From Falsirhodobacter sp. alg1 (GTDB taxonomy: Bacteria > Pseudomonadota > Alphaproteobacteria > Rhodobacterales > Rhodobacteraceae), in assembly GCF_000739715.2 (NCBI RefSeq), contig NZ_BBJC02000004.1, positions 226,831 through 290,830 of the forward strand: 64,000 nt of DNA, in the 5' to 3' direction. Shown one piece after another: positions 23,565 to 62,600 of the stretch. Positions within the stretch are counted from its first letter, which is position 1; every line of letters begins with the position of its first letter. Both the position numbers and the translations under genes were made by a program. The notes below the pieces were generated by a model that was not told the DNA's origin, ran no database searches, and worked only from the letters and a program-made list of their open reading frames with translations.

Positions 23565-24308
23565 ATGGCGCGCCGCATAAAGGTTTACGAAGGTAAGGCC
23601 AAGATCCTGTTCGAAGGCCCCGAACCCGGCACCCTGATCCAGTACTTCAAGGATGAAGCGCAGGAACATGATGACAGCCGTCCCGAGGGGCGGGGGGTTC
23701 TGAACAACCGTCTGTCGGAATTCTTCATGACCGGGCTGAACAGTGTTGGCGTTCCCACACATTTCATCCGCCGGATGAACATGCGCGAGCAGCTTGTCCG
23801 CATGGCGGAAATGGTACCGCTGGAGGTGATGGTTCGCAACTATGCCGCTGGCGGCATTTGCGAACGGCTGGGTATTCCCGAAGGGACGCCGCTGCCGCGT
23901 CCTGTGGTCGAATACTACTTCAAGGATGAAAAGCTTGGGACTCCGCTTGTCTCCGAGGAACATATCACCGCGTTCAACTGGGCAAACCAGCAGGACCTGG
24001 ATGATATTGTCGCACTTATCCTGCGTCTGAACGATTTCCTGTCAGGCGTCATGATGGGCGTCGGTGTGCGCCTTGCGGATTTCCGCGTCGAGATCGGCCG
24101 CATCTGGGAGGGCGATTTCATGCGTCTGATCATCGCCGATGAAATTACGCCCGACAATTGCACCCTGTGGGACATGCGCGGCCTGGATAGCGAGGGGAAC
24201 CTGCGCGATCCGGGGCCGGTATCCGATATGTCCACGGAATTGGCACGGCGCTTGGGGGTTCTGCCTTCCAATGTTACGCATACTATCAAACCCACGCTTA
24301 TTAACTGA
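23565..24308 (+). CDS. purC: Phosphoribosylaminoimidazole-succinocarboxamide synthase
   Basis: A 247-residue SAICAR synthetase, step 8 of de novo purine synthesis: CAIR plus Asp plus ATP gives SAICAR. Recognisable segments are YEGKAKILFEGPEPGTL, EVMVRNYAAGG, and the C-terminal signature LRLIIADEITPDNCTLWD. Length is right for the bacterial single-domain enzyme. GGAG about 6 nt upstream of 23565 marks the start within a longer open frame. purS follows after 9 nt. Confidence 0.97.
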   Translation: MARRIKVYEGKAKILFEGPEPGTLIQYFKDEAQEHDDSRPEGRGVLNNRLSEFFMTGLNSVGVPTHFIRRMNMREQLVRMAEMVPLEVMVRNYAAGGICERLGIPEGTPLPRPVVEYYFKDEKLGTPLVSEEHITAFNWANQQDLDDIVALILRLNDFLSGVMMGVGVRLADFRVEIGRIWEGDFMRLIIADEITPDNCTLWDMRGLDSEGNLRDPGPVSDMSTELARRLGVLPSNVTHTIKPTLIN

Positions 24309-37155: not shown

Positions 37156-37824
37156 ATGAAAGCCGCCGTCATCACCTATCCCGGTTCCAACTGCGACCGC
37201 GATCTTGCTGTGGCCTTCCGCGATGCGGGGGCCGAGGTTGTCAGCGTCTGGCACAAGGAAACCGAACTGCCCGCAGGCGTGGATGTGGTCGGTGTTCCGG
37301 GCGGTTTTTCCTTTGGCGATTATCTGCGCTGCGGGGCGATCGCGGCACGTTCGCCCATCTCGGCGGCCCTGGCACAGCATGCGGAACGCGGCGGTTATGT
37401 GCTGGGCATCTGCAACGGGTTTCAGGTTCTGACCGAAACCGGTCTGCTGCCGGGCGCGCTGATGCGCAATTCCCGCCTGAAATACATCTGCCGTCAGGTA
37501 AAGCTGCGGGTTGAGACATCGGATAGCGCCTTTACATCGGAATATGCCAAAGGTGCCGAAATCACCGTTCCCATCGCGCATCATGACGGCAATTACACTG
37601 CGGATCTGGAAACGCTGGTCCGCTTGGCCGCCGAGGAGCGGATCGCGTTCAGCTATCTCGACAATCCGAATGGCGCCATGGAGAACATCGCGGGTGTCCT
37701 GTCGGCCAACCGGCGTGTGCTTGGCATGATGCCGCACCCGGAGCGTGCGATGGAGGATGCGGTGGGCAGTTCCGACGGTCGTGCGCTGTTCAGCAGCCTG
37801 CTGGGCAAGATGGCGCTTGCCTGA
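37156..37824 (+). CDS. purQ: Phosphoribosylformylglycinamidine synthase subunit PurQ
   Basis: A 222-residue class I glutamine amidotransferase supplying ammonia to PurL. The nucleophile is C86 in LGICNGFQ and the His/Glu pair is H194/E196 in [27 protein letters not shown] is the standard PurQ start and GGAG lies about 10 nt upstream. Its structural partner PurS is encoded 12.6 kb upstream on the same strand. The adjacent sensor kinase gene begins 46 bp downstream and has no obvious metabolic tie. Confidence 0.96.
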
Positions 37825-37870
37825 CCGTACGCCGCTTGAGGGTGGATCGCCCGGCGAATATCCTGCGCGT

Positions 37871-39637
37871 ATGATAAAGCAAGATCAGGAAGATAGATCG
37901 GAAGCGGAGGCGCGCACGGGTATTTCGTGGCGGCTTCGCATCATCATCTCCATCATGCTGGCGGTTGCCGTGGCCACCGTCCTGATCACGAACCGCCTGA
38001 TGACCGAGCGGGCGACCGAGACGACGCGCAATCGTGCCGAAGTCCGTCTGGCGCTATATTCCGGCAACATGATGAACGAACTGCAGCGGACATCGGTTGT
38101 TCCGCTGCTGCTGGCACGGGACGCGTCGCTGATCGGGGCGTTGTCATCGAATGAATATACCTCCACCTCGCAGCGACTGATCTCGTTCCAGACGGAAATC
38201 GGCGCAGCCTCCATTTCGTTGCTGGATCGCAGCGGGCGGGTGGTCGGGGCAACGAACCGCAACCTGCTGGGGGCAACCTACCGGTCGGAGCCGTTTTTTG
38301 TTGATGCGATGCGGACGAATGAAACCGTGTTCTCGGCCACGCGGCGCACCGAGGGCGCGTTCGATTTCACCTATTCCCGGGCGGTGGTGAAGGACAATCA
38401 GGTCATCGGCATCGTGGCCGTCGTGGTTGATCTGATGAAGTACGAACGTACCTGGGCGGGGTTGCAGGATGCGGTTCTGGTGACCGACAGTTCCGGCGTC
38501 GTCGTTCTTTCAACCGAGCCGCGCTGGCGGGGGCTGGACATCAAGGATGCCCTTGCGGTGCAGGATCCGCCCTCGGCCATCCTGCGGGCGTTTCAGGTGA
38601 CGGCGGACTGGGCACAGGAACCCCCCGATGCCTATCTGCGCGGAGAGGCTGTGCTGCGCACCGATGCACGCGTTCCGTTCCGTGGGTGGCGTCTGGTCAC
38701 ATATACCGCCTATGACACCGTGCGCGAACGGGTGAACGCGGTTCTGGCGCTTGAAATCATGGGATTTGCCATCCTGCTGGCCGCGACATTCTACATGCTG
38801 TCGCGCCGCGCATGGTCCCAGAGCATGTCCTTCCAGCGTGAATCCGCCGAACTGCGCCTGCTGAACCAGCGTCTGCAGCGGGAAATCGCTGAGCGGGAGA
38901 AAGCGCAGAAAGAGCTTGCCTCTGCCGAGGCGACGCTGGCGCAATCATCGAAATTGGCGGCCCTGGGAGAAATGTCGGCAGCCGTCAGCCACGAGCTGAA
39001 CCAGCCTCTGGCGGCGATGAAGACCTATCTGGCAGGTGCGCGGCTGTTGTTGCAGCGCCGCCGGACCGAAGAGGCGATGTCTTCCTTCCAGCGGATCGAC
39101 GATCTGATCGAGCGGATGGGGGCAATCACCCGTCAGCTGAAATCCTATGCCCGCAAGGGTGGTGAGGCGTTCGAACCCGTGGATGTGCGGCATTGCGTGT
39201 CGGCTGCGCTGTCGATGATGGAGCCGCAACTGAAGGTGCGGGTCGTCCGGATCAACCGCCAGATCCCGCGGCGTCCGATCATGGTGCTGGCGGACCGCCT
39301 GCGGTTGGAACAGGTCATCATCAACCTTCTGCGCAACGCGCTGGATGCCACAAAGGGGGTGAATGCCCCGCAGATCGATATCGCCCTGACCGAGGGCACC
39401 ACGGTCAGCCTGACCGTGCAGGACAACGGCAGCGGAATTGCCGATCTCTCGAATTTGTTCGAGCCGTTTTATACGACAAAAAAGCCCGGAGAGGGCGTGG
39501 GCCTTGGCCTCGCCATCTCGTCAGGGATCATAAAAGATCTAGGTGGTCGGCTGACTGCAACGAATGCAGACGGGGGCGGGGCTGTTTTTGAAGTGCAGCT
39601 GCCCCTATTTAACGATCGAACAGAAACAGTGGAATGA
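37871..39637 (+). CDS. dctB: DctB-like sensor histidine kinase
   Basis: A 588-residue membrane sensor kinase. Two transmembrane segments (about 22-41 and 289-310) enclose a periplasmic tandem-PAS (dCache) sensor of about 250 residues. A short coiled coil leads to HisKA with phospho-acceptor H374 (AVSHELNQPLAAMKTYLAGA) and an HATPase domain with DNGSGI and GVGLGLAISSGII. The domain plan and HELNQPL box match DctB, the C4-dicarboxylate sensor. The partner response regulator follows 7 nt downstream. No dicarboxylate transporter genes are in the window, so the ligand is inferred from family only. Confidence 0.88.
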   Translation: MIKQDQEDRSEAEARTGISWRLRIIISIMLAVAVATVLITNRLMTERATETTRNRAEVRLALYSGNMMNELQRTSVVPLLLARDASLIGALSSNEYTSTSQRLISFQTEIGAASISLLDRSGRVVGATNRNLLGATYRSEPFFVDAMRTNETVFSATRRTEGAFDFTYSRAVVKDNQVIGIVAVVVDLMKYERTWAGLQDAVLVTDSSGVVVLSTEPRWRGLDIKDALAVQDPPSAILRAFQVTADWAQEPPDAYLRGEAVLRTDARVPFRGWRLVTYTAYDTVRERVNAVLALEIMGFAILLAATFYMLSRRAWSQSMSFQRESAELRLLNQRLQREIAEREKAQKELASAEATLAQSSKLAALGEMSAAVSHELNQPLAAMKTYLAGARLLLQRRRTEEAMSSFQRIDDLIERMGAITRQLKSYARKGGEAFEPVDVRHCVSAALSMMEPQLKVRVVRINRQIPRRPIMVLADRLRLEQVIINLLRNALDATKGVNAPQIDIALTEGTTVSLTVQDNGSGIADLSNLFEPFYTTKKPGEGVGLGLAISSGIIKDLGGRLTATNADGGGAVFEVQLPLFNDRTETVE

Positions 39638-39644
39638 GGTCTGA

Positions 39645-40973
39645 ATGGCTCGGGCGATGAAAGTTGCGATTGTCGATGACGAGGCAGATTTGCGACAATC
39701 CGTCAGTCAATGGCTGGCCCTTTCCGGCTTCGACACGGAAACCTACGCCTCTGCCGAAGAGGCGCTGAAGGCGATCGGTCCGGATTATCCAGGCATCGTG
39801 GTCAGCGATATCCGCATGCCGGGCATGGACGGGATGGCCCTGCTGAAACGCTTCATGAGCCTTGATAGCGGCCTGCCTGTCATCATGATCACCGGACATG
39901 GCGATGTTCCCATGGCGGTAGAGGCAATGCGCCTCGGAGCCTATGATTTTCTGGAAAAGCCGTTCAACCCCGACCGGATGACCGAGCTGGCCAAAAAGGC
40001 GACGCAGGCCCGCCGCATGACGCTGGACAACCGTGCCCTGCGCCGCGAGCTTGCCGATGGCAGCATGATCATGAAGAAGCTGATCGGCGCCTCGCCTGCG
40101 ATGGAACGGCTGCGTGAGGATATTCTGGATCTGGGGCAGGCGGACAGCCATGTTCTGATCGATGGCGAAACAGGTACGGGCAAGACGCTTGTAGCCCATG
40201 CGCTGCATGCCGTGGGGCCGCGTGCGGGCAAGAAGTTCGTCACGATCTCTTGCGCGGCATGGACCGAGGACCAGCTTCAGGCGAAATTGTTCGGCCCGGT
40301 CGAGGAGGGCGGTCTGCCCCTCGTTGACGAGGCCCGTGGCGGAACCCTGTGCCTTGAGGATGTGGAGGCCCTGAGCCATCCGCTGCAATCCCGCCTTCTG
40401 ACCCTTATCAATGATCAGGCTGTTCCCCCGGAAACGCGGATCATCGCCATCTGTAACCAGCATGCCCCCGATTCCACACTGGAGGATGTGCTGCGCCCCG
40501 ATCTGTTCTATCGCCTTGGAGCAATGACGATCCTGTTGCCGCCCTTGCGGACGCGCGGAGAGGACATTCTGACCCTGTTCACGCGGATGTCCGAACAGTT
40601 TGCCGAGGAATATGGCTGCGAGGCTCCGCAGGTCACGGCACAGGAAGCGGCGCAGCTTTTGCAGGCCCCCTGGCCCGGAAACGTGCGCCAACTGGTGAAC
40701 ATCGCCGAGCGCGCCGTATTGCAGAACCGCCGCGGCTCCGGCTCCATCGCTTCGCTGCTCATGGCGGACAATGAGGCCTCCGGTCCTGCCCTGACAACCG
40801 AGGGCAAGCCGCTCAAGGATTATGTCGAGGCATTCGAGCGGATGCTGATTGACAATACGATGCGGCGCCACAAGGGCTCCATCGTCGGAGTGATGGAAGA
40901 GCTGTGTCTGCCACGCCGGACTCTGAACGAGAAAATGGCCAAATACAGCCTGCAACGGGCCGATTACGTCTGA
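39645..40973 (+). CDS. dctD: DctD/NtrC-type response regulator with degenerate AAA+ domain
   Basis: A 442-residue NtrC-type regulator. The receiver has phospho-acceptor D55 (VVSDIRMPG) and the KPF lysine near 105. The AAA+ domain keeps Walker A GETGTGKT (174-181) and the sensor II-like region (PWPGNVRQL), but the loop after LFG (215-217) is short and lacks the GAFTGA motif that contacts sigma-54. The second pre-sensor loop is also shortened, and Walker B reads LCLED. A Fis-type helix-turn-helix ends the protein (411-435, GSIVGVMEELCLPRRTLNEK). It may therefore act on sigma-70 promoters or not remodel polymerase at all, like the Rhodobacter NtrC case. Paired with dctB. Confidence 0.88.
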   Translation: MARAMKVAIVDDEADLRQSVSQWLALSGFDTETYASAEEALKAIGPDYPGIVVSDIRMPGMDGMALLKRFMSLDSGLPVIMITGHGDVPMAVEAMRLGAYDFLEKPFNPDRMTELAKKATQARRMTLDNRALRRELADGSMIMKKLIGASPAMERLREDILDLGQADSHVLIDGETGTGKTLVAHALHAVGPRAGKKFVTISCAAWTEDQLQAKLFGPVEEGGLPLVDEARGGTLCLEDVEALSHPLQSRLLTLINDQAVPPETRIIAICNQHAPDSTLEDVLRPDLFYRLGAMTILLPPLRTRGEDILTLFTRMSEQFAEEYGCEAPQVTAQEAAQLLQAPWPGNVRQLVNIAERAVLQNRRGSGSIASLLMADNEASGPALTTEGKPLKDYVEAFERMLIDNTMRRHKGSIVGVMEELCLPRRTLNEKMAKYSLQRADYV

Positions 40974-41402
40974 GGATTTCCGGAGCGTGGCCCCCACGCT
41001 CCGGACAAGCCTGTGGAAAACAGCCATTGTATTTGCTGCAAACCTGCCATTAAGGTGGGGAAATGCATGTATGCGCCGAAAAGGGCCTACCGCATTGTTA
41101 AGTTTTGCCGCTCTTGCGGACCATGGGGGAAGCCCCGAGGCCGCGACGGGCGCATTTTTCGGCCGCAAGGCCACAGATGTTTGCCCGCTGTCCTGACCGA
41201 TACCGGGCCTTTCACAAGGGCGCGGTTCGCGCCCGGGATAGAACCGCGATGGGCGAAGCAGAACGGACAGGACGCGAGAGGTGCTTGAACAGTGCCCCGT
41301 ATCCGCACCGCTCTCCCCCCGTTGCCTTTGCAAGACGCCACCGCCAGACAGCAGCCCGTCCCCATGGGATCGGCCGCGTCTGTCCGGGCGCATCGGAAGA
41401 CC
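40974..41402 (+). other. 429-bp intergenic region and probable 5' leader of rne
   Basis: No convincing gene is present. The first 31 bp are the post-dctD hairpin. The remainder probably holds the rne promoter and a long untranslated leader; GGAAGA lies just before the ATG at 41403. An open frame reads into rne from 41292, but it lacks the family N terminus. RNase E leaders in enterobacteria mediate autoregulation, so a structured leader is plausible, but I could not identify a specific element. Confidence 0.5.
40980..41004 (+). terminator. Perfect 11-bp hairpin after dctD
   Basis: CCGGAGCGTGG (40980-40990) pairs with CCACGCTCCGG (40994-41004) around CCC. It starts 7 nt after the dctD stop codon. 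There is no T-run, so it could be a factor-aided terminator or a 3'-end stabilising hairpin. Confidence 0.5.
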
Positions 41403-43844
41403 ATGGCCAAAAAAATGCTTATCGACGCAACGCACCCGGAGGAAACCCGGGTCGTTGTGGTGGACGGAAACAAGGTTGAAGAGTTCGACTTCGAGACGGT
41501 CAACAGACGCCAGATCTCGGGGAACATCTATCTGGCGAAGGTGACGCGGGTCGAGCCTTCGTTGCAGGCGGCCTTTGTCGATTACGGCGGCAACCGCCAC
41601 GGTTTTCTGGCATTCGCCGAAATCCACCCCGATTACTACCAGATCCCCGTAGCAGACCGTCAGGCGCTGCTGGACGAAGAGCGGGCGATGGCCCGTGACG
41701 AGGAGGAGGAGCGGGCGCCCGTATCCTCCAATGCGGATGACGAGGATGAGGACGACAGTGACGACGAGATCGAATCCGTCGCCGAAGAGGACATGGCCGA
41801 AGAAATTCGCGCCCCGCGCAAGCCGCGTGCCCGTCGCTACAAGATTCAGGAAGTCGTGAAGGTCCGCCAGATCCTTCTGGTGCAGGTCGTCAAGGAAGAG
41901 CGTGGCACCAAGGGTGCGGCGCTGACCACCTACCTGAGCCTTGCCGGGCGTTATTGCGTCCTGATGCCGAACACGGCGCGGGGCGGCGGCATCAGCCGCA
42001 AGATCACGCAGGTGGCCGACCGCAAGAAACTGAAAGAGATCGCAAGCGAGATGCTGGTACCCGAAGGTGCCGGTCTGATCATCCGTACGGCGGGTGCAAA
42101 ACGCACGAAGGCCGAAATCCGCCGCGATTACGAATATCTGATGCGCCTGTGGGAGCAGATCCGCGAGCTGACGATGAAATCCGTCGCTCCGGCCCCGATC
42201 TATGAAGAAGGCGACCTGATCAAACGGTCCATCCGTGACCTGTTCAACCGTGAGATCGACGAGGTTCTGGTCGAGGGCGAAGCAGGATTCCGGACCGCCA
42301 AGGACTTCATGCGGATGATCATGCCGCATCATGCGCGTCAGGTGATCCGCTACAATGATACGATGCCGCTGTTCGCCCGCTATCAGGTCGAAAGCTACCT
42401 GGGCGGGATGTTCAACCCGGTCGTGCAGCTCAAATCGGGTGGTTACATCGTGATCGGCGTGACCGAGGCGCTTGTGGCGATTGACGTGAACTCCGGACGG
42501 GCCACCAAGGAAGGCTCCATTGAGGATACGGCGCTGAAGACCAACCTTGAGGCCGCCGAAGAGGTTGCTCGCCAGTTGCGCCTGCGCGATCTGGCCGGGC
42601 TGATCGTGATCGACTTCATCGACATGGACGAGCGTCGGAACAACATCGCCGTCGAGAAGCGCATGAAAGAGCGGTTGAAAACCGATCGGGCGCGGATCCA
42701 GGTTGGTCGCATTTCCGGTTTCGGCCTGATGGAGATGAGCCGTCAGCGTCTGCACCCCGGAATGCTGGAATCAACCACGCAACCCTGTGCGCACTGCCAC
42801 GGTACGGGCCTGATCCGTTCGGATGACAGCCTTGCCCTGCAAATCCTGCGTCAGCTGGAAGAGGAGGGGACGCGCAAACGTTCCAAGGAGGTGCTGTTGC
42901 GCGCACCTGTCGCGGTTGTGAACTTCCTGTTGAACAACAAGCGGGAGCACATCGCCCTGATCGAGGCGCGTTACGGTATGGCCGTTCGGATCGAGGCCGA
43001 TCCGCATCTGGTTTCGCCGGATTACTCGATCGAGAAGTTCAAGACCGCGACCCGTATCGTTCCGGAAGCACCGTTGGTCGTGTCCGGTGATGCCTCCTTG
43101 ATGGGGGATCTGATCGAGGACGAAGACGATCTTCCGCTGGAAGAGGATGAGCCGGATCACGTCGAAGCGGAGGTCGAGAATGACGCCGAAGCGGAAGCCG
43201 TAGAGGCCGAGGCAGAATCCGATGCGCCGGCCAAGAAGAAGCGTCGCCGTCGCCGTCGTCGTCGTGGCGGAAACGGCAATGATGCGAACACGGGGGAATC
43301 CACTCCGGAAACCGTGACGGCAGAGGATACTGCCGGTGGCGAGAGTGTGGCCGTCGAGGTCGCCGAAGCCCCGGTGGAGCCGCAGACGCCCGAGCCCGCA
43401 CCCGTGGCTGAAACCGCCCCGGCAGTAGAAGAGCCTGCGCCGGAGCCCGAAGCCGAAGCGCCGAAACCGAAACGTGTGACACGCACGCGCCGGAAACCGG
43501 CAACCGAGGCACCGGCCGAGGCCGCTGCGGCAGAACCCGCAATGGCCGAAGAAGCACCGAAGCCGAAGCGCCGTCGCACATCGGCCAAGAAGACCGAAGA
43601 GGTTGCCGCGGCAGAAGAAGCTCCGGCACCGAAGCGCGCCCCGCGGACCCGCAAGAAGGCAGAGCCCGAGGCCGCGGCCGAAGAGGCGCCCAAGCCGAAA
43701 CGGACGCGCCGCACGAAAGCGGAGCCTGCCGCGGTCGAGGAAAAGGCAGTGGAGGCCGCCGTACCGGCCCCTGAACCTGCTGCAACACCGGAACCGGCCA
43801 CCGAGGAGGCGCCGAAGCGCCGCCGCGGTTGGTGGGCCAGCTGA
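41403..43844 (+). CDS. rne: Ribonuclease E
   Basis: An 813-residue endoribonuclease, scaffold of the RNA degradosome. The S1 domain (starting ISGNIYLAKVTRVEPSLQAA) is interrupted by an acidic insertion at about residues 97-135, as in other alphaproteobacterial RNase E proteins. Catalytic Mg2+ ligands are D361 (ALVAIDVNSG) and D404 (LIVIDFIDM); the Zn-link is C462/C465 (PCAHCHGTG). From about 560 the protein is a low-complexity tail of alternating acidic, Arg-rich (a run of arginines after KKK) and Ala/Pro/Lys segments, expected to be disordered and to bind RNA and degradosome partners. It ends RRRGWWAS. A strong terminator follows. Confidence 0.96.
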   Translation: MAKKMLIDATHPEETRVVVVDGNKVEEFDFETVNRRQISGNIYLAKVTRVEPSLQAAFVDYGGNRHGFLAFAEIHPDYYQIPVADRQALLDEERAMARDEEEERAPVSSNADDEDEDDSDDEIESVAEEDMAEEIRAPRKPRARRYKIQEVVKVRQILLVQVVKEERGTKGAALTTYLSLAGRYCVLMPNTARGGGISRKITQVADRKKLKEIASEMLVPEGAGLIIRTAGAKRTKAEIRRDYEYLMRLWEQIRELTMKSVAPAPIYEEGDLIKRSIRDLFNREIDEVLVEGEAGFRTAKDFMRMIMPHHARQVIRYNDTMPLFARYQVESYLGGMFNPVVQLKSGGYIVIGVTEALVAIDVNSGRATKEGSIEDTALKTNLEAAEEVARQLRLRDLAGLIVIDFIDMDERRNNIAVEKRMKERLKTDRARIQVGRISGFGLMEMSRQRLHPGMLESTTQPCAHCHGTGLIRSDDSLALQILRQLEEEGTRKRSKEVLLRAPVAVVNFLLNNKREHIALIEARYGMAVRIEADPHLVSPDYSIEKFKTATRIVPEAPLVVSGDASLMGDLIEDEDDLPLEEDEPDHVEAEVENDAEAEAVEAEAESDAPAKKKRRRRRRRRGGNGNDANTGESTPETVTAEDTAGGESVAVEVAEAPVEPQTPEPAPVAETAPAVEEPAPEPEAEAPKPKRVTRTRRKPATEAPAEAAAAEPAMAEEAPKPKRRRTSAKKTEEVAAAEEAPAPKRAPRTRKKAEPEAAAEEAPKPKRTRRTKAEPAAVEEKAVEAAVPAPEPAATPEPATEEAPKRRRGWWAS

Positions 43845-47094: not shown

Positions 47095-47410
47095 AGTGCA
47101 GGCTTCTGTTGCCAGGTGCCTGCGAACCCCGCCTTACGCGGCTAAGCGCAAGGACTTAAGTTTCGACAACTGGAACTGCTTACGCAGCAACAGCCATCGG
47201 AGCACGGTTGTCGTTTGCAACTGTACAAATCGGACCGATAACGGTGGTACCTCACCGAGCGAAAGCTGGCCCCTTTAGACGTTCGTCGATCCTGTTTCGA
47301 CCCCATCCGCCCCAAACGAGGGAGTATTGGTGGAGTCGCCGGGTACCGCCCCCGGGTCCGATCCGCTTATTACGGGTGCGTTTATCGCCATAGTCCGGGC
47401 AAGCCCGAAC
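47095..47410 (-). ncRNA. ssrA: tmRNA, circularly permuted two-piece form
   Basis: Minus strand. The tag reading frame is 47218-47180: GCA AAC GAC ... GCG TAA, encoding ANDNRAPMAVAA-stop, preceded by the non-templated Ala. The acceptor piece comes first and ends CCACCA with its CCA at 47330-47328; a 23-nt spacer (47327-47305) precedes the coding piece, whose 5' end GGGGTCG (47304-47298) pairs over 7 bp with CGACTCC of the acceptor piece. The T-stem CCGGG/CCCGG is also visible. The coding piece ends in hairpin GCAGGC/GCCTGC (47123-47098). This is the two-piece arrangement known in alphaproteobacteria. It rescues stalled ribosomes. Outer ends are approximate. Confidence 0.93.
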
Positions 47411-47416
47411 ACCCCC

Positions 47417-47445
47417 GATATAGGGCGGATCGGCCGGGCGGACAA
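47417..47445 (-). promoter_or_regulatory. Candidate sigma-70 promoter of ssrA
   Basis: On the minus strand TTGTCC (47445-47440) and TATATC (47422-47417) are spaced by 17 nt, each matching four of six consensus bases, and predict a transcript start near 47410, just before the acceptor piece of tmRNA. The -35 lies inside a 6-bp hairpin (47436-47454) that follows the upstream binding-protein gene. Confidence 0.5.
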
Positions 47446-47458
47446 GACCCGCCCTGTA

Positions 47459-62342: not shown

Positions 62343-62417
62343 TGGCAGCCCGTAGGGGAGTTGAACCCCTCTTTTCAGGTTGAAAACCTGACGTCCTAAC
62401 CGATAGACGAACGGGCC
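62343..62417 (-). tRNA. tRNA-Glu (anticodon TTC), copy 1
   Basis: A 75-nt cloverleaf on the minus strand with encoded CCA. Acceptor stem GGCCCGT/ACGGGCT (with one G-U), anticodon stem TCAGG/CCTGA and loop TTTTCAA give anticodon TTC (Glu). T-arm GAGGGGTTCAACTCCCC is standard, followed by G73 and CCA. Identical to the copy at 62526. Confidence 0.97.
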
Positions 62418-62525: not shown

Positions 62526-62600
62526 TGGCAGCCCGTAGGGGAGTTGAACCCCTCTTTTCAGGTTGAAAACCTGACGTCCTAACCGATAGACGAACGGGCC
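62526..62600 (-). tRNA. tRNA-Glu (anticodon TTC), copy 2
   Basis: Base-for-base identical to the copy at 62343-62417, including the encoded CCA and three flanking 5' bases. The two are separated by 108 bp, and this copy is the upstream one on the minus strand. Confidence 0.97.

Follow-up and report, generated by a model that had tools for sequence, protein, structure and literature searches.

A GAFTGA-less DctD-like regulator conserved across Rhodobacteraceae probably acts at sigma-70-type promoters

Introduction

What does a response regulator built like a sigma-54-dependent activator do when it lacks the loop with which such proteins contact sigma-54? This question is raised by a gene of Falsirhodobacter sp. 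alg1 that encodes a DctD-like response regulator without GAFTGA (P0001; 39645..40973, + strand; positions refer to the 64,000-nucleotide stretch analyzed here, called the window). GAFTGA is reported to be essential for sigma-54 contact, and the same paper names TyrR, DhaR, HupR and VpsR as relatives of bEBPs that lack it (PMC3162934). According to PMC10274813, NtrC of Rhodobacterales and Caulobacter is GAFTGA-less as well. Such relatives of bEBPs are already a known kind. In open-access papers, we recognized none that deals with the orthologue group described here. A first-pass annotation, made from the sequence of the window, had drawn a parallel with NtrC of Rhodobacter capsulatus and suggested a rewired dicarboxylate-type response.

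Results

The regulator keeps its domains and lacks the remodelling loops

Domain profile searches of the 442-residue translation revealed a receiver (residues 7-115), a Sigma54_activat AAA+ domain (146-296; PF00158, 96 bits at a cut-off of 20.2), an AAA lid and an HTH_8 domain. The phospho-acceptor D55 (codon 39807..39809, +), the Walker A motif at residues 174-181 and the Fis-type helix-turn-helix (HTH), which had been listed as retained, were all found by domain search and alignment, as were both arginine fingers and sensor II. Walker A reads GETGTGKT (40164..40187, +) and ends in T, this position being T or S rather than the E usual in GAFTGA-bearing relatives. The HTH core with the recognition helix PRRTLNEKM maps to 40884..40940 (+).

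The changes concern both loops and Walker B. In an alignment with DctD of S. meliloti, the remnant of loop L1 (residues 216-232; 40290..40340, +) lacks GAFTGA and is 7 residues shorter, with 14 residues between LFG (215-217) and GGT compared to 21, in line with the approximate figure of the first-pass annotation. The region of loop L2 (residues 253-263; 40401..40433, +) is shortened by 9 residues; in Walker B (TLCLED, residues 234-239; 40344..40361, +; LCLED at 235-239), the alignment shows E-D in place of D-E, so that it also bears out the earlier description of these two sites. A displaced copy of the motif was looked for as well; the pattern G[AS]F[TS]GA occurs in none of 174 sequences of the clade described below, the window protein included.

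An AlphaFold model of the regulator, used for fold matching alone, had an only moderate mean pLDDT of 70 and reached 76-91 in much of the AAA+ core. The top structural match of this model was Brucella NtrX, and the best receiver-only chain among solved structures was S. meliloti DctD.

The genome of the window shows no RpoN

The genome comprises 2.92 Mb and is rated 100% complete. In a profile search of this genome, the DNA-binding domain of RpoN (PF04552) gave no match, and the full RpoN model TIGR02395 gave a best E-value of 0.19 at 11 bits, with a cut-off of 277. As far as the searches with these two models reach, strict rpoN dependence therefore cannot apply in this genome. The Sigma54_activat model found three strong proteins, namely this regulator, an NtrC and an NtrX (named by profile match, the NtrC scoring below its curated cut-off), besides four weaker matches of 25 bits or less. 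None of the three carries GAFTGA. The NtrC (L111:9950-11314) lacks L1, has a short L2 and ends Walker A in GKS, thereby converging with the window regulator; together with the missing RpoN match, this substantiates the proposed parallel with R. capsulatus NtrC. That the regulator is itself an NtrC misnamed as DctD was rejected, as a separate NtrC is found near NtrX and the regulator falls in the DctD subfamily. With GAFTGA and the usual Walker B gone and no RpoN detected, the regulator is by its defining features not a sigma-54 bEBP.

A family-wide clade shares the changes

We scanned 295 genomes of Rhodobacteraceae covering 294 genera. Every one of them contains a match to the regulator at E 1e-40. 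By a hand tally of best E-values, about 270 genomes hold a member of its clade (269 below 1e-100 and one fragment), and the other 25 hold only more distant relatives. RpoN exceeded the cut-off in 92 of the 295 genomes (100 at E 0.001) and stayed below it or was missing in 203. Among the 270 genomes with a clade member, again tallied by hand and some of them incomplete, 77 have RpoN over the cut-off and about 193 do not. The nearest named genome is that of Rhodobacter xinxiangensis at 95%, in a comparison that may omit the record of the window itself.

A total of 174 distinct clade sequences, the window's among them, was read after matches with fewer than about 330 aligned residues had been dropped; 18 duplicates were removed from 233 sequences, and near-identical copies from one species may remain. 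GAFTGA is absent from all 174, while D55 and the sensor II arginine R348 are present in all, the two arginine fingers (RR at 284/290) in 171 and the PRRTLNEKM helix in 172. Walker A ends in KT (155 sequences), KS (16) or RS (3), and Walker B reads ED in 159, EN in 7, EG in 3 and DE in 2, with EE, KN and DD found once each. Since the short loops recur across the whole clade, chance or a sequencing error is excluded as their cause. The same loop loss is seen in members from genomes with and without RpoN. The change that the first-pass annotation had presented as a feature of one regulator is thus real, and it is not special to that protein, the clade being family-wide and several other DctD-like lineages having lost GAFTGA separately.

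Two side observations concern individual members. In L070 (genome G049), the orthologue is split over two overlapping frames (query residues 1-302 and 299-442), representing a frameshift or a sequencing error. The divergent members L073, L074 and L076 have the Walker A lysine replaced by arginine (GRS) and a degenerate Walker B (EN, KN and DD), as though even the capacity to bind nucleotide were on its way out.

Mean column identity amounts to 86% among 32 diverse clade members. Of nine stretches compared over 159 orthologues, the L1 remnant (residues 218-227) scores lowest in conservation (0.60) and the HTH highest (0.94), with the receiver at 0.88. In 17 GAFTGA-bearing relatives, a smaller and more diverse set, so that stretches should be compared only within each set, the same L1 columns score 0.78 and the HTH 0.57. 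Judged from these sequences, the regulator gene is maintained for a purpose unrelated to sigma-54.

Loops and Walker A probably changed before Walker B

Two trees were computed, one of 215 sequences and one of 108 sequences in which the L1, L2 and Walker B columns were masked. The clade is placed next to GAFTGA-bearing regulators of other alphaproteobacteria, including those of Azospirillum oryzae and Azospirillum sp. B510. This sister group lies outside Rhodobacteraceae and carries both GAFTGA and the same PRRTLNEKM helix. Both trees support the joint group of clade and sister at 1.0; the sister group alone is supported at 0.93 in the larger tree and only weakly, at 0.62, in the masked one. 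The simplest reading of these trees would be a loss of GAFTGA on the stem of the Rhodobacteraceae clade.

The basal members L071 and L072, both from genomes with RpoN, have no L1, a short L2 and GKT, yet they keep FLDE. Because Walker B is intact here despite the loop loss, it was probably the last of these sites to change, after L1, L2 and Walker A. The last residue of Walker A pairs with Walker B, E going with D-E in 34 sequences and T or S with E-D in 159; shared ancestry accounts for much of this co-occurrence. Other GAFTGA-less DctD-like groups and NtrX behave differently. By the same measure, their L2 is 22-27 residues long compared to 13-19 in the window clade, and in the 108-sequence tree they have mostly GKE. 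Among the sequences of that tree, L1 loss, a short L2 and GKT or GKS are combined only in the window clade and in the NtrC of the same genome.

Kinase and regulator share a conserved sigma-70-type promoter

The gene order in the window is purQ (37156..37824, +), kinase (37871..39637, +), regulator and rne, encoding RNase E (41403..43844, +); the outer two are conserved neighbours that provide context only. The PurQ C-terminal motif MPHPE precedes the kinase in 75 of 80 named loci, and the rne start motif lies within 2.5 kb downstream in 56 of 80, some loci being cut by contig ends. These neighbour counts rest on motif searches, since antisense ORFs displaced real genes in the crude ORF-based gene calling.

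A conserved pattern of the sigma-70 type, CTTGAG-N18-TATCCT (37835..37864, +), precedes the pair. Its general form, CTTGA[GC]-N15-19-TANNNT, precedes the kinase gene in 55 of 75 named loci, with a shuffled mean of 0.06 of 75; an E. coli-style promoter scan did not flag the CTTGAG promoter. The kinase start codon of the window is located 6 nt downstream of the -10 element. Of 54 loci whose spacer is 18 nt long, 49 have a first start codon that opens the kinase frame; in 40 of the 54, the first start codon stands exactly 6 nt past the -10 element, and 37 of these 40 are in the kinase frame. As the spacing puts the start codon this close to the -10 element, the kinase mRNA is probably leaderless, in the window and in many relatives alike. 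The -35/-10 promoter tells how the pair is expressed and not which genes it controls.

Downstream of the regulator stop, a strong hairpin (40979..41005, +; -27.4 kcal/mol, z -4.7) forms a possible transcript end and is not followed by a T run. Stems of at least 9 bp that lie no more than 80 nt from the stop occur in only 24 of 80 loci, compared to 3 for shuffled sequences. Between regulator and rne, no palindrome was common to more than 3 of 42 loci. The same interval (40974-41402 in the window) contains the conserved 10-mers AACCGCGATG (18 of 42 loci) and AGTTTCGCTG (17 of 42), which perhaps represent the rne leader. Elsewhere, the window holds an alphaproteobacterial permuted tmRNA at 47095-47449 (-) and two tRNA genes with identical scores at 62346-62417 (-) and 62529-62600 (-).

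The ligand pocket of the kinase differs from that of DctB

The adjoining kinase (588 aa) consists of dCache, HisKA and HATPase_c domains. The dCache_1 model scored 43.7 bits, just under its cut-off of 45, and the domain matches solved structures of the DctB sensor domain. The kinase can accordingly be called DctB-like in architecture, as had been proposed. Its ligand pocket is changed. W138, R152 and K197 of S. meliloti DctB, which we take to be the ligand-holding residues of the sensor, were located in an alignment of this protein with 77 clade kinases. The stretch around W138 is deleted in all 77, and K197 is absent in all 77 with no basic residue within 3 columns. At the position of R152, an arginine is kept in 3 and a lysine found in 2 of the 77 kinases, and 56 have a basic residue within 3 columns; the loss of R152 is less sure than that of K197, as the alignment may have slipped here. 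Some clade kinases still have a match to Y149 or R152 of DctB. All three residues are kept in the kinase of A. oryzae and in the dctA-linked kinase of Azospirillum ramasamyi. According to the text of PMC8694187, the coordinating residues are shown in its Figure 2.

No transporter gene of the dctA or TRAP type was found beside the pair at the window locus; elsewhere, the genome encodes six TRAP proteins of the DctP type. In the window, the palindrome between dctA and dctB of S. meliloti, TGTGCGGATTTCCGCACA, showed no excess: TGTGCG-N6-CGCACA with up to 3 mismatches gave 33 matches at 52 expected. The DctD operator core GCGGA-NN-TCCGC, which is located between the symporter and kinase genes of S. 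meliloti, occurs with an A/T centre at six perfect places in the genome, compared to none for the backward control. All six fall within ORFs at least 90 codons long, a criterion that is weak where DNA is rich in G+C, and one of them lies in the window at 24075. The perfect core is absent from the six dctP loci (about 3.8 kb each) and from the surroundings of the pair, and it appears at scattered places in 4 of the 40 loci of orthologues and in 2 of the 80 named ones. Allowing 2 mismatches, one match was obtained upstream of the dctP gene of L160; the five remaining stretches, three of them short (25, 31 and 111 bases), gave no match. Across window, genome, dctP loci and orthologue loci, the operator searches pointed to no nameable regulon or target promoter.

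With no adjoining transporter and no convincing DctD operator, a dicarboxylate role of the pair appears unlikely, and the ligand of the kinase is probably not succinate. The rewired dicarboxylate-type response suggested at first is hence not sustained by the equivalents of W138 and K197 (gone in all 77 kinases), by that of R152 or by the surroundings of the locus.

Further GAFTGA-less paralogues of DctD

GCGGA-NN-TCCGC also occurs in Ruegeria pomeroyi and R. conchae, beside GAFTGA-less regulators linked to TRAP genes, and in several further genomes. A sigma-54-like promoter (score of 10 or more) lies close to the pair in 7 of the 14 loci that bear GAFTGA and in 3 of the 28 that do not (Fisher p 0.008). 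Because of the relatedness among the loci, and because one of these three promoters is far upstream, this comparison is an indication only. In a smaller, operator-centred set, all three sites of GAFTGA-bearing regulators had a sigma-54-like promoter above shuffles, the one in L255 at about 6 kb from the regulator, and none of the seven other sites reached a score of 10, two reaching 9. These promoter scores would fit the idea that operators are retained when a regulator loses GAFTGA and that the -24/-12 element disappears.

Several groups of such paralogues were encountered. A second DctD-like clade with the helix GRRTLNEKI (L077, L078, L080, L084, L085, L088, L140, L252 from R. pomeroyi and L274 from R. 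conchae) has lost GAFTGA and kept GKE (GKD in L085), D-E and a long L2. Its two Ruegeria members (L252, L274) adjoin annotated TRAP genes, and a core of the type TGCGGAWWTCCGCAGG is found within about 100 nt past the regulator match in L078, L085, L088, L252 and L274. A third group (L079, L081, L082, L083, L086, L087, L089, L090, L149, L150, L247, L269, L275, L279) contains GAFPGA, GAFAGA or an otherwise damaged GAFTGA at about the original length of L1. A preference for proline at position 4 among defective GAFTGA copies is reported in PMC3162934. Finally, regulators from Paracoccus and Thioclava plasmids (L271, L272, L273, L276, L277) have the S. meliloti-type helix PRKTFYDKL and no GAFTGA, and in four of the five a dicarboxylate/amino acid symporter is annotated beside the kinase. 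This is a separate loss of GAFTGA, in an apparent true DctD.

Discussion

On balance, we consider it likely that a regulator of the DctD subfamily parted from sigma-54 along the stem lineage of Rhodobacteraceae and today regulates promoters of the sigma-70 type in a nucleotide-gated manner. Several observations count for this reading: neither model detects RpoN in a genome rated 100% complete, and GAFTGA occurs in none of the clade sequences; the kinase-regulator pair has a conserved -35/-10 promoter; and the alignments and trees offer a GAFTGA-bearing sister with the same helix, a joint support that persists after masking, and opposite constraint on L1 and HTH. Against it count the 77 clade-bearing genomes, out of 270, that do have RpoN, the operator searches, which yielded no target promoter, and the possibility that the regulator could be mainly a repressor.

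Mechanistically, the DctB-like kinase would sense a periplasmic ligand, probably one other than succinate, and phosphorylate D55 of the regulator, a site that is present. Phosphorylation would then let the AAA+ domain oligomerize with ATP; the sites that this calls for, namely Walker A, the two arginine fingers and sensor II, are all present. As L1, L2 and the D-E form of Walker B are gone, ATP would probably serve as a structural ligand with little or no hydrolysis. The oligomer is predicted to bind DNA through the PRRTLNEKM helix and to contact or block RNA polymerase carrying the housekeeping sigma factor, as reported for R. capsulatus NtrC. That protein is described in PMC10274813 as acting through sigma-70, with a requirement for aspartyl phosphorylation and for ATP binding, not hydrolysis. 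Caulobacter NtrC, which has no GAFTGA, is reported to need Walker B (same source), and so a loss of hydrolysis does not follow from the loss of GAFTGA alone. In the window regulator, unlike in loop loss alone, Walker B itself is altered, as read from the alignment.

A more detailed scenario is offered tentatively, at a little under an even chance. Here, a sigma-54 motor would have become a nucleotide-gated switch for ordinary promoters, losing L1 and most of L2 and turning GKE into GKT or GKS (the state of the two basal members, reached in NtrC by convergence), and only then changing D-E to E-D, with the ligand pocket remade, a regulon unrelated to dicarboxylates and an old, family-wide class as the result.

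The regulator could instead be mainly a repressor or anti-activator that blocks promoters or other activators and uses its AAA+ domain only to assemble a ring or dimer. With the remodelling loops and the usual Walker B gone, the motor is gone too, as this reading would require, and for the GAFTGA-less NtrC of Caulobacter direct competition with CtrA at repressed genes has been proposed (PMC10274813). However, the closest functional match in loop state, R. capsulatus NtrC, is reported there to be an activator, and we regard a mainly repressive role as unlikely. Slightly more doubtful is the reading of the first-pass annotation, by which the protein is still a C4-dicarboxylate regulator merely moved from sigma-54 to sigma-70. 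The structural matches of receiver and dCache domain to DctD and DctB, the six DctP-type proteins, and the matched Y149 or R152 in some kinases with a basic residue near R152 in most, speak in its favour. These likenesses are set against a pocket that has lost the W138 stretch and K197 throughout, a locus with no adjoining transporter, and dctP loci with no perfect operator core; moreover, GAFTGA-less DctD paralogues beside dctA or TRAP genes could fill the role in some Rhodobacteraceae. It is very improbable that the protein still serves sigma-54 through another surface in the species with RpoN, numerous as these are, since the loop loss is the same with and without RpoN and GAFTGA is reported to be essential for this contact. 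A functionless relic decaying after the loss of sigma-54, which the loop and Walker B changes and the mostly RpoN-less genomes might suggest, is hardly credible for a gene with such conserved HTH, receiver and overall sequence that is retained in about 270 of 295 genomes, also where RpoN exists; one broken copy (L070) was seen.

Returning to the sigma-70 reading, these results have consequences beyond the locus. An annotation pipeline labels a clade member sigma-54 dependent, though RpoN over the cut-off is missing from 203 of the 295 family genomes. The clade presents a series of intermediates from an ATP-driven activator to a sigma-70 regulator, and it constitutes a second, independent case beside NtrC with matching changes at L1, L2 and Walker A; with two such cases, it becomes testable which changes are needed to leave sigma-54. 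The results also point to a conserved two-component system in an abundant bacterial family.

Among known systems, DctB/DctD of S. meliloti resembles the window pair in its receiver, AAA+ domain, Fis-type HTH and dCache kinase, and its DctD gave the best receiver-only structure match. Only S. meliloti DctD, however, has GAFTGA, GKE, FLDE, a long L2 and the helix PRKTFYDKL, and the divergent dctA-type symporter gene, palindrome and -24/-12-like promoter of its locus were not found in the window system. The Azospirillum-type regulators (A. oryzae, Azospirillum sp. B510) share the helix PRRTLNEKM and are the nearest GAFTGA-bearing relatives, but their GAFTGA, GKE, LDE and L2 are intact; in two members of the sister group, there then follow a sigma-54-like promoter and ORFs that resemble TRAP proteins by eye. 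One locus of a relative of the window regulator (L101) has TRAP-like clusters a few genes upstream, past the pur genes. Brucella NtrX (5m7n, 5m7o, 5m7p) was the top structural match, with no GAFTGA in the aligned stretch, whereas NtrX proteins keep a long L2 and GKE in the 108-sequence tree and have another HTH and other partners. VpsR (7v2b), reported to be GAFTGA-less, likewise has another HTH and other partners, and HupR, TyrR and DhaR, set beside the window regulator by description only, combine loss or change of GAFTGA with sigma-70 dependence (PMC3162934). R. capsulatus NtrC, compared by way of the NtrC of the window's genome and not through the R. capsulatus protein itself, shares the L1 deletion, the L2 shortening and a Walker A ending in S or T. 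The window regulator differs from it as a separate lineage of the DctD subfamily with a DctB-like kinase, E-D rather than D-E in Walker B and another HTH. By analogy, we infer that it works most like R. capsulatus NtrC.
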